Assembly: GCA_022402465.1 (NCBI GenBank)
Contig: JAKRSH010000042.1
Location: 1-64,000 of the forward strand
Source: Leptospiraceae bacterium
GTDB taxonomy: Bacteria; Spirochaetota; Leptospiria; Leptospirales; Leptospiraceae
Direction: 5' to 3'
DNA: 64,000 nucleotides
Part shown: positions 12,627-15,052 of the stretch, piece by piece
Numbering within the stretch: the stretch's first letter is position 1
Layout: each line of letters starts with the position of its first letter
Notes under the pieces: generated by a model
Database searches by the model: none
Told to the model about the DNA's origin: nothing
Seen by the model: the letters and a program-made list of their open reading frames with translations, nothing else
Program-made: the position numbers and the translations under genes

Positions 12627-13064
12627 ATGTACAAGAAAGAATTATTATCTTTATCATTGATTTTTATTTTATTTTCCGGAATTTCAGCTGAAGAAAGTGT
12701 AAGCACGGAATTAACCAAGGTTGAGAATTTTTACAAAACCAAAAATAGCCCCGATCCTAATCCAGACACAATGATTCGTGAAAATCTTGCTTCAGCTTTG
12801 AAATTAGCTGTGATTCGTCATCTACCGAATGGGAAGCAGAAAGCGGATGCTATTCATAAAGAAACAATAAAGTTCGATCAAATTGAAGATAGCAATTTGG
12901 TAGTCACTGTTTTTGAAGACTATGTTTTTGAGTTTCGATTCGGAGCCAACCCAAGGAAATACCATATAAGTCCTGTCAGCCACAGGTATTTTAAGAAAGA
13001 TAAAGAATGGCAGAACTCAGGTTCAAAGCTAAATGAAAAGGTTGAGAAGAAACAAGAGAAGTAA
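12627..13064 (+). CDS. Small exported protein of unknown function
   Basis: The 145-residue product has a clear signal peptide (about residues 1-21, cleavage likely after 'GISA'). The mature part mixes helices and strands ('MIRENLASALKLAVIRHLPNG', 'LVVTVFEDYVFEFRFGANPRKYHISP') and ends in a Lys/Glu-rich tail. I recognise no family. Its promoter must lie in the 31-bp gap shared with the divergent ChaN-like gene, so the two promoters are probably back to back or overlap coding sequence. TAGGAAA precedes ATG 12627 as ribosome-binding site. The gene is separated from the nucleosidase-like gene by 69 bp containing a small hairpin. Confidence 0.6.
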   Translation: MYKKELLSLSLIFILFSGISAEESVSTELTKVENFYKTKNSPDPNPDTMIRENLASALKLAVIRHLPNGKQKADAIHKETIKFDQIEDSNLVVTVFEDYVFEFRFGANPRKYHISPVSHRYFKKDKEWQNSGSKLNEKVEKKQEK

Positions 13065-13133: not shown

Positions 13134-14051
13134 TTGCCAATACTACACACTGCACTCCATTCTGAAGCAAAAATTTTCAAAGAAGAATTCAATCTTTCTA
13201 AGATAGAATCCTATCGAAAGATCGAAATTTTTTCTAGAGATGATATTGTTCTTGTTGTAAGTGGAATTGGAAAGATTTCAACATCTATAGCCATATCTCT
13301 TGCATCAGCAATTAAGCCTAATTGTAGAGATTTTTATCTTAATTTTGGTATAGCAGGTTCAGCCAAGAAAGAACACGCATTAGGTGATTTGAGAATGATT
13401 GACAAGGTGGTTGATTTGGCTACGGATCGTTCTTACTTTTCTGATTTTCTGATTCAATCCGAACTCATTTCAGCAAGTCTTGGAACATCAGATTTGCCTG
13501 TTGCCAAAATCAATCCAATAGCTAAGGATGGATTGCAAAGCAATCTTTCCAAAATGAAATACATTCAGCCCAGTGAAAGTGATTTAGATTTGTATGATAT
13601 GGAAGCCTCAGCATTTTATCAATCTGCTATTTATTTTGCTGATTCACATAGAATTCATAGCTTGAAGATAGTATCAGATCATTTAGAAGGAATATATTGC
13701 AAGGCTGAAGATGTTGAAAATTGGGCAGAGCAACAAAAGGATAGAATTTTTACCTTTCTGGAAGAGAATAGAAATTTCTTAACTAAAGAATCCTCTTCAA
13801 AATATAAAATATCTAATCAGCCATCTGGTTTGATGAATTCTATACTGGAAGAAATCCAATCCAATCTTAGACTTACAGCTTCGCAAAAGTCGGAACTCAA
13901 AAAGGCATATGAATACTGGGACCACCATACTAAGCATAAGGATGATAGCTGGAAGAAATTTCTCTATGCAGACTCGGACAAAGTGAACAAAGCAGAAGGT
14001 AAGATTCGCTTACAACAAGTAATATCTACCTTTTATAACAGGGCCGGATAG
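13134..14051 (+). CDS. MTA/SAH nucleosidase-like protein with C-terminal extension
   Basis: This 305-residue protein has an N-terminal domain (about 1-215) of the nucleoside phosphorylase/MTAN superfamily. Seen: the catalytic-type Glu in 'ALHSEAKIF', 'LNFGIAGS' (ribose/phosphate loop), 'DLYDMEASAFYQSA' (the ME pair that binds ribose) and 'IVSDH' (the purine-site Asp). This fits cleavage of a nucleoside such as 5'-deoxyadenosine or methylthioadenosine. The last 90 residues are helical and charged, with no family recognised. The start is TTG 13134 after GAGG. The stop overlaps the GTG start of the radical SAM gene by 1 nt (TAGTG), so the two are translationally coupled. Confidence 0.7.
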   Translation: MPILHTALHSEAKIFKEEFNLSKIESYRKIEIFSRDDIVLVVSGIGKISTSIAISLASAIKPNCRDFYLNFGIAGSAKKEHALGDLRMIDKVVDLATDRSYFSDFLIQSELISASLGTSDLPVAKINPIAKDGLQSNLSKMKYIQPSESDLDLYDMEASAFYQSAIYFADSHRIHSLKIVSDHLEGIYCKAEDVENWAEQQKDRIFTFLEENRNFLTKESSSKYKISNQPSGLMNSILEEIQSNLRLTASQKSELKKAYEYWDHHTKHKDDSWKKFLYADSDKVNKAEGKIRLQQVISTFYNRAG

Positions 14052-15052
14052 TGAAACTTCCAAATTATTCGCATATTTACCTCGAAGAAAAGGCAAAATA
14101 TTCTCGTATAACAAACGATATACTTTCAAAATTGCCTAAATCTAAAGTCATACTTATCAAAGATTATAAAGAAATTTTCAATCGTCCTGGACAAGACTTC
14201 CAAGTTCAAAAACAAAGTCCCAAGCTTATACTTGCAAACAAAAAGGATCATTTTTTATATAAGGGATCTGATCTTGCTCCCGATTTCGGTGAGGATCACT
14301 TTTATTATAATTCTTTAGTTTTAAATTGCCCGTACAATTGTGACTATTGTTATCTTCAAGGAATGTATAGCTCTGGAAATATTGTAATTTTTGTAAATAT
14401 TGATGATTTCTTTCAAGCTACCGAAGAGAAGTTGCAAGAACTAGGAAGGCTCTATCTTTGTTTATCCTATGATACCGATCTTTTAGGTATGGAATCATGG
14501 ATAGGATATTCAAAGTTATGGATAGAATTTGCCAGAAGTCGTCCCAATCTTATCCTAGAGTTAAGAACTAAGTCAGCAAATGCAAAAGCCTTGGAGGGAT
14601 GCAAGCCAATAGAAAATTTAATTCTAGCTTGGACCCTCTCCCCTGATGTTGTAGTCACTAACTTTGAGAAGAAAACTGCAAGTCTAAGCGCAAGAATAAG
14701 AGCGATGAAAGCTGCCGTGGATATTGGCTGGAAGGTTAGAATCTGTATAGATCCTATACTAGATTTTCCTGGCTGGCAAGACGCATATGCTCAGTTAGTT
14801 GAAACTTTGGAGAAGTCCAAGATTCTCGATCGAGTCGAACAGATTAGTTTAGGAACTTTTCGAATGAACAAGGATTATTTTGTAAGAATTCGGAAGAATC
14901 GCAAGTCGGATTCAAGTTTATTTCTCAATGAGTTTGTAATTGAGCAAGGAGCTGTATTCTACCCACTTGCAAGTCGAGAAAGATTAATCGATCATTTGCA
15001 AGAAAATTTGGCGATCAAATCAAATTCTAATATTTACTTTCGGGATTATTAA
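14051..15052 (+). CDS. Spore photoproduct lyase-like radical SAM protein
   Basis: The 333-residue protein carries the radical SAM cluster motif C-x3-C-x2-C in 'NCPYNCDYCYLQG' (about residues 95-107), followed by 'VIFVNIDDFF'. This combination is typical of the spore photoproduct lyase (SPL) family rather than generic radical SAM proteins. SPL reverses the thymine dimer of UV-damaged spores; this organism is not expected to form spores, so the substrate may be another DNA lesion. A Cys lies shortly before 'DTDLLGME', near where SPL keeps its H-donor Cys (from memory, not an alignment). The GTG start overlaps the stop of the nucleosidase-like gene. Confidence 0.85.
   Translation: MKLPNYSHIYLEEKAKYSRITNDILSKLPKSKVILIKDYKEIFNRPGQDFQVQKQSPKLILANKKDHFLYKGSDLAPDFGEDHFYYNSLVLNCPYNCDYCYLQGMYSSGNIVIFVNIDDFFQATEEKLQELGRLYLCLSYDTDLLGMESWIGYSKLWIEFARSRPNLILELRTKSANAKALEGCKPIENLILAWTLSPDVVVTNFEKKTASLSARIRAMKAAVDIGWKVRICIDPILDFPGWQDAYAQLVETLEKSKILDRVEQISLGTFRMNKDYFVRIRKNRKSDSSLFLNEFVIEQGAVFYPLASRERLIDHLQENLAIKSNSNIYFRDY

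Follow-up and report, generated by a model that had tools for sequence, protein, structure and literature searches.

The window, a stretch of 64,000 nucleotides of DNA from a Leptospiraceae bacterium, carries two adjacent genes coding for a nucleosidase-like protein (hereafter the partner) and for a radical SAM protein of a group related to spore photoproduct lyase (SPL) and referred to here as SPL-A. The two genes are linked, co-occur across genomes and are fused in some hosts, and their products display the folds and residues described below. A strong functional link between SPL-A and the partner is highly probable and the observations point to an enzyme system so far unstudied; no literature on the pair was found by title or abstract in the open literature, most subscription papers being outside this scope. 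The reading preferred here, for and against which we regard the chances as even, is that the pair forms a radical SAM enzyme of two subunits, one of them a dedicated nucleosidase that would remove 5'-deoxyadenosine on the spot. If this is true, a nucleosidase that serves a single radical SAM enzyme would constitute a built-in answer to product inhibition, the relief of which the fusion proteins make directly testable in one polypeptide.

Organisation of the locus

A preliminary description of this DNA had proposed that a nucleosidase-like and an SPL-like gene are translationally coupled through a TAGTG sequence, and both open reading frames and their overlap were confirmed (Table 1). The coupling is believed to be beyond chance because the same adjacent order is seen again in Clostridia and Fusobacterium. 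The TTG start of the partner lines up with the Met start of its relatives in the alignment. The pair is preceded by Tiki/ChaN-family and LIC11625-like genes and followed by a MATE transporter gene, as identified by Pfam and NCBIfam.

Table 1. Features of the nucleosidase-like and SPL-A genes, numbered from the first base of the window
Feature	Position	Strand	Remarks
Nucleosidase-like partner gene	13134..14051	+	ORF, 305 aa, TTG start; MTAN-fold domain and C-terminal helical domain
Glu11, equivalent of MTAN Glu12	13164..13166	+	Invariant in the 38 rows of alignment A2; E in 64/71 partners
YFSD, window form of the family motif [FY]-Y-P-D	13434..13445	+	P in 69/71 rows, S in the window
Asp155-Met156-Glu157, equivalent of MTAN Met-Glu	13596..13604	+	E157 in 67/71, M156 in 62/71
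Ser181-Asp182, equivalent of MTAN Ser-Asp	13674..13679	+	D182 in 64/71, S181 in 57/71
C-terminal helical domain, approximately residues 230-304	13821..14045	+	Model helices 232-245, 249-266 and 286-304; conserved K286
TAGTG stop/start overlap, one base	14049..14053	+	TAG 14049-14051, GTG 14051-14053
SPL-A radical SAM gene	14051..15052	+	ORF, 333 aa, GTG start; Pfam SPL E 3.3e-19
C93-x3-C97-x2-C100, [4Fe-4S] cluster motif	14327..14350	+	Three Cys in 73/73 SPL-A rows
Tyr140 at the SPL hydrogen-donor Cys position	14468..14470	+	Tyr in 72/73 SPL-A rows, Phe in 1
Cys232 in VRICIDP, SPL-A-specific, candidate alternative hydrogen donor	14744..14746	+	Cys in 58/73 SPL-A, 0/28 others

One perfect GAAC-N4-GTTC palindrome, GAACTCAGGTTC, lies at 13013-13024, within the last part of the upstream gene and about 110 bases before the partner start. 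SOS regulation was considered as a candidate and rejected, as GAAC-N4-GTTC is present in 2 of the 59 regions preceding the partner gene and in 1 of 310 random stretches, and three other boxes in 0, 2 and 0 of the 59 against 5, 5 and 3 of the 310. An Rfam scan of 12 loci gave seven matches (T-box, TPP, tRNA), none adjoining the genes under study, and anti-phage defence models searched against five proteins gave no match.

The nucleosidase-like partner

The partner of the window is a member of the PNP_UDP_1 superfamily in Pfam (29 bits against a cut-off of 25.1, over residues 32-102 only) and scores under the NCBIfam equivalog cut-offs for MTAN (23.6 against 169 and 16.4 against 73.8) and under the cut-off for futalosine hydrolase (TIGR03664, 25.6 bits against 124.7). 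Futalosine hydrolase is also the nearest named NCBIfam family for the partner at the clostridial locus L003, with 44.8 bits. The AlphaFold model of the window partner (pLDDT 87.2, pTM 0.71) has an MTAN structure, 3dp9, as its top Foldseek match (E 1.4e-12).

MTAN-type residues (a Glu, an ME pair and an Asp) had been noted in the preliminary description, and a profile alignment bears them out, with E11, D155-M156-E157 and S181-D182 falling on the corresponding Glu, Met-Glu and Ser-Asp residues of the MTAN of S. aureus (3bl6). We take E11, E157 and D182 to correspond to the MTAN catalytic residues Glu12, Glu174 and Asp197. Mutants of Glu12 and Asp197 are named in the titles of the PDB entries 1z5n and 1z5o. 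Residue counts out of 71 refer to all aligned partners, while alignment A2 comprises 38 partner rows from which truncated, eroded and near-identical partners are excluded.

In the fusions described below, the C-terminal helical domain connects the partner to the radical SAM domain, and a Pfam search of this part of the partner found no family common to the members. The window genome has a further PNP/MTAN-family gene (C42:177659-178378, 152 bits) and the partner is therefore not the sole such gene.

The SPL-A radical SAM protein

The SPL-A protein of the window matches the Pfam SPL family with 69.4 bits against a cut-off of 27 and falls short of the NCBIfam equivalog cut-offs for SPL (74.2 against 400) and SPL-family (54.2 against 437.55) proteins. 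The C-x3-C-x2-C motif and the VIFVNIDDFF segment reported earlier are both present, and the Tyr before the third cluster Cys occurs in all 73 SPL-A rows, in which one gene is counted twice (as L164 and as G195). In SPL, according to an excerpt of PMC5368176, the hydrogen for the substrate radical comes from a Cys, and a pair of Tyr relays the radical back, with regeneration of SAM. The window protein has Tyr140 in place of this hydrogen-donor Cys (C140/C141), and the phmmer alignment to the SPL structures 4fhc/4fhg likewise pairs Tyr140 with the donor Cys. As the substitution by Tyr holds in 72 of the 73 rows, SPL-A fails this defining SPL feature. The column of the Cys of clostridial SPL (C. 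acetobutylicum C74) has Cys in none of the 73 SPL-A rows, the loop lengths being different, and the position four columns further (position 76) has Cys in 62 of the 73 and in none of the rows of the window and its family.

A search of 392 Clostridia genomes with the L003 relative identified SPL-A in 60 genomes at E<=1e-57 (36-100% identity) and, across a wide gap, 38 weaker matches with E values from 1e-21 to 1e-12, six of which, true-SPL-like genes, are in genomes that also have SPL-A. In a tree of 101 rows, the SPL-A (73), true-SPL-like (10), group B (9) and group C (9) sequences each occupy one side of a branch, the SPL-A branch having a support of 100/100 apart from true SPL. The tree is midpoint-rooted for drawing only and the adjacency of SPL-A and group B, which carries Glu rather than Tyr at the SPL donor position, depends on the root. 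Judged from the tree, SPL-A is a clade of its own, apart from true spore photoproduct lyase. This divides the SPL-like genes, for which DNA repair photolyase is a frequent annotation; SPL-A, failing a key SPL residue, probably has another role, and the group spans Clostridia, Fusobacterium and relatives of Leptospira. SPL-like genes were observed in 127 of 295 Spirochaetota genomes, mostly outside SPL-A, and the group C loci examined have no obvious partner.

These features bear on the possibility that SPL-A is an SPL-like DNA-lesion lyase with another hydrogen donor, be it Cys232, the loop Cys or Tyr140. The SPL fold (in the model of the fusion at L156), the conserved cluster Cys with the neighbouring Tyr, and the frequent Cys232 and position 76 Cys, the latter lacking in the window, are consistent with this possibility, as are the use of a different Cys, C74, in C. 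acetobutylicum SPL (an excerpt of PMC5368176) and a UDG-family gene just upstream of SPL-A in the genome G002. It is nevertheless unlikely, given the separate clade, the coexistence with true-SPL-like genes in six genomes, the scores far under the SPL equivalog cut-offs, the lack of enrichment of GAAC-N4-GTTC upstream and the rarity of UDG-like genes nearby (L200, L154, L157 and L210 of 75 loci). The earlier suggestion of DNA repair of the SPL type is, accordingly, unsupported by the Tyr at the donor position, the coexisting true-SPL-like genes and the SOS-box counts; a nucleic-acid substrate for SPL-A is possible.

Distribution and fusion of the pair

SPL-A was searched for in the Spirochaetota, in one sample of Clostridia, among plasmid and phage records and, by a single pattern scan, in GTDB contigs. 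Among the 392 Clostridia, the partner was detected at E<=1e-6 in 56 of the 60 genomes with SPL-A and in none of the 332 without it (Fisher 1.3e-63, a value to be taken as indicative only, since these genomes share ancestry and one of their number, G296, was the source of the query sequences). In the four remaining SPL-A genomes a partner-like ORF likewise lies upstream, with the residues present at L147 and eroded at L137, L160 and L161. The 62 loci inspected include 59 of the 60 Clostridia by region, L003 for the 60th, and additionally L002 and G195; the partner lies just upstream of SPL-A on the same strand in the inspected loci, and, where the pair is unfused and the partner was matched (56 cases), no more than 100 bases separate its stop from the beginning of the SPL-A match, with the sole exception of L114, where the frame of the partner is broken. 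Clustering of the neighbours at the 62 loci placed the partner with 37 of 37 SPL clusters, an SDR reductase with 24 and the next families with 5, and found no further conserved neighbour around SPL-A.

The partner and SPL-A are joined in a single ORF at three Clostridia loci (L150, L156 and L158) and in Fusobacterium vincentii (NZ_CP084075.1, L210), where a 623-aa fusion is followed by SDR, and the four fusions sit at separate places in the tree. The model of the L156 fusion (pLDDT 90.6, pTM 0.86) gives VIA Z scores of 31.9 to SPL 4rh0 (residues 291-620) and 22.5 to MTAN 2h8g (residues 1-199), and the predicted pTM suggests a defined domain arrangement. Co-occurrence beyond close relatives had been set as a test of the pairing, and the pair indeed recurs in Spirochaetota, Clostridia and Fusobacteriota.

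NZ_CP084075.1 is labelled as an F. vincentii plasmid, yet at 2,108,235 bases it is probably a chromosome. Two faecal scaffolds labelled 'Bacteriophage sp.' carry related genes, L212 (MT835770.1) with the partner, SPL-A and SDR and L211 (MT835514.1) with SPL-A, SDR and only a remnant of the partner, and may be bacterial contamination. One scan of viral contigs with the Fusobacterium protein found no relative.

SPL-A is present in all eight genomes examined of the window's family; in the seven others the partner is also present, matched over nearly its whole length and unlinked to SPL-A. Among the 295 Spirochaetota genomes, the partner profile reaches its C-terminal end in eight only, all of them within the 11 genomes with a strong SPL-A match (E<=3.7e-60), and the remaining three of these (G195, G125 and G223) have an eroded ORF upstream. 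In the other 118 matching genomes the profile aligned over a shorter part only, and the corresponding ORFs, mostly of MTAN or futalosine-hydrolase length, are presumably such enzymes. That the pair is unlinked in seven of eight genomes of the window's family would suit a conserved operon of functionally unlinked genes. This explanation is extremely improbable, as all eight genomes keep both genes, and it is already contradicted by the fusions in Clostridia and Fusobacterium and the phyletic match of 56/60 against 0/332.

The SDR reductase

A specific SDR group (43-55% identity, E<=3.1e-45) is found in 37 of the 60 Clostridia genomes with SPL-A and in none of the 332 others (Fisher 2.1e-36), with nothing else at E<=1e-35 in the 392 genomes, and is missing from 23 of the 60. 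It adjoins SPL-A in 34 genomes, mostly downstream, and is located elsewhere in G406, G421 and G580. The SDR retains TGxxxGIG, Ser138, Tyr151 and Lys155 (Tyr-x3-Lys), and its Arg39 suggests NADP(H) as the cofactor. Within the window's family, the SDR adjoins SPL-A in G003, is about 9-11 kb off in G004, G006 and G007 and is elsewhere in G001 and G005; a search for the orthologue found none in the window genome or G002, the best SDR of the window genome being a partial match (31% identical, E 6.8e-19) against 34-42% and E<=3.9e-35 for the orthologues of the related genomes. Of the module defined here as SPL-A, nucleosidase and SDR, the window thus has SPL-A and the adjacent partner, and the SDR was not found in its genome.

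UDG-superfamily genes were observed at L200:6383-7000 (G002), in the usual place of the partner, and two genes beyond the SDR in Fusobacterium (L210:8699-9292).

Erosion of the nucleosidase site

All three acidic residues (E11, E157 and D182) are present in 61 of the 71 aligned partners. The ten exceptions comprise two trimming artefacts (L145 and L146), a masked sequence (L121), a broken frame (L114) and six apparently real losses of catalytic residues, in L120 and L124 (both Asp to Gly), L160, G195, G125 and G223; L137 and L161, outside the 71-row alignment, are additional partners with the residues lost. The eroded L137, L160 and L161 retain the YPD segment (YFPD in L161) and the C-terminal domain. 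The group B partners match the partner profile through the C-terminal domain (hhalign probability 96.8%, E 2.2e-10), have no Met-Glu and Ser-Asp pattern and look eroded. From these substitutions, the partner appears not to be an active nucleosidase in every lineage. A further PNP/MTAN-family gene, such as that of the window genome, could substitute where the partner is eroded, which would explain the loss of the site with the pairing kept, and such repeated erosion represents a natural experiment on the purpose of the partner. The Pfam matches of two group B partners (L017:501-1502 and L023:2460-3410) to DndB (E 0.0021) and to the C-terminal arm of Ku (E 0.0087) are weak, lie below threshold and are probably due to chance.

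The erosion is of particular relevance to the view that the partner serves chiefly as a subunit for structure or substrate binding, in which [FY]YPD and the C-terminal domain would complete the radical SAM site and the nucleosidase activity would be auxiliary and repeatedly lost. Such a view, a minority possibility that we hold to be somewhat unlikely, is in agreement with what the eroded L137, L160 and L161 retain and with the profile relationship of the group B partners, and is opposed by the apparent catalytic triad in the large majority of partners, two of the ten exceptions being artefacts, since the strong conservation of E11, E157 and D182 implies that catalysis is under selection in most hosts.

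Loss of the site with the pairing kept is also less favourable to a route that cannot dispense with the nucleosidase step. In one such futalosine-like route, SPL-A would attach the 5'-deoxyadenosyl radical to an acceptor molecule, adenine would be stripped from the adduct by the nucleosidase and the exposed sugar aldehyde would be reduced by the SDR. MqnE provides the comparison for radical adenosylation. The futalosine hydrolase family as the nearest named relative of the partner, the absence of the SAM-restoring donor Cys from SPL-A, and the intact motifs, Arg39 and distribution (37/60 against 0/332) of the SDR fit this route, which would represent a second, non-menaquinone case of radical adenosylation followed by deadenination. 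We nevertheless consider it quite unlikely, because repeated loss of the nucleosidase residues with SPL-A retained and the absence of the SDR from 23 of the 60 genomes are odd for obligate steps, and the radical abstracts hydrogen in nearly every radical SAM enzyme, as stated in an excerpt of PMC11994313.

Proposed mechanism

In the preferred reading of a two-subunit enzyme with its own nucleosidase, SPL-A would split SAM to give the 5'-deoxyadenosyl radical. As the donor Cys that restores SAM in SPL is missing, SAM is probably consumed, so that 5'-deoxyadenosine stays behind at the active site. The clearing of 5'-deoxyadenosine from radical SAM enzymes is usually attributed to a general nucleosidase. 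In the present pair, the C-terminal domain would hold the partner against SPL-A, in unfused pairs as well, and the partner would release adenine and a deoxyribose part from 5'-deoxyadenosine or from a product that carries the adenosyl group. As 5'-deoxyadenosine is an inhibitor of radical SAM enzymes (an excerpt of PMC8102628), this cleavage would relieve product inhibition of SPL-A. The NADP(H)-type SDR present in many hosts would probably reduce a carbonyl made by the pair. In favour of this reading are the co-occurrence and the fusions, the two folds in the L156 model, the conserved MTAN residues and the Tyr at the donor position; against it stand the eroded partners, the unlinked genes in the seven other genomes of the window's family, futalosine hydrolase as the closest NCBIfam family and the failure to find the SDR orthologue in the window genome and G002. 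The proposal of the preliminary description that the first enzyme clears a nucleoside by-product of the second is favoured for the window, where the intact nucleosidase residues make clearance of 5'-deoxyadenosine plausible, and fares less well as a general rule, several lineages having lost the residues and retained the partner.

Comparison with known systems

Spore photoproduct lyase (SplB; PF20903, TIGR04070; structures 4fhc-4fhg and 4rh0) resembles SPL-A in the cluster motif with its adjacent Tyr and in the fold (VIA Z approximately 31.7-31.9, rmsd 2.5-2.8 over 312-319 residues, measured on the fusion homologue L156 rather than the window protein). SPL-A differs from it in the Tyr at the donor position, the separate clade, the scores far under the equivalog cut-offs and the nucleosidase-like partner upstream in all the Clostridia loci examined. 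MTAN (MTA/SAH nucleosidase, Pfs; PF01048) shares the fold and the Glu, Met-Glu and Ser-Asp residues with the partner, whereas the latter is extended by a C-terminal helical domain of roughly 75 residues and has the [FY]YPD motif, sub-equivalog scores and a genetic tie to SPL-A.

The futalosine hydrolase MqnB (TIGR03664) is the best NCBIfam match of the partner, and its pathway also runs beside radical SAM enzymes; the partner differs in its low scores (25.6 bits in the window and 44.8 in L003, against 124.7), in being without an MqnE/MqnC-type partner and in having the C-terminal domain. The spirochaete SPL-like group B adjoins SPL-A in the midpoint-rooted tree and has an upstream partner-like ORF at L017, L018, L019 and L023, and is distinguished from the SPL-A module by the Glu at the donor position and by partners in which the nucleosidase residues are not retained.
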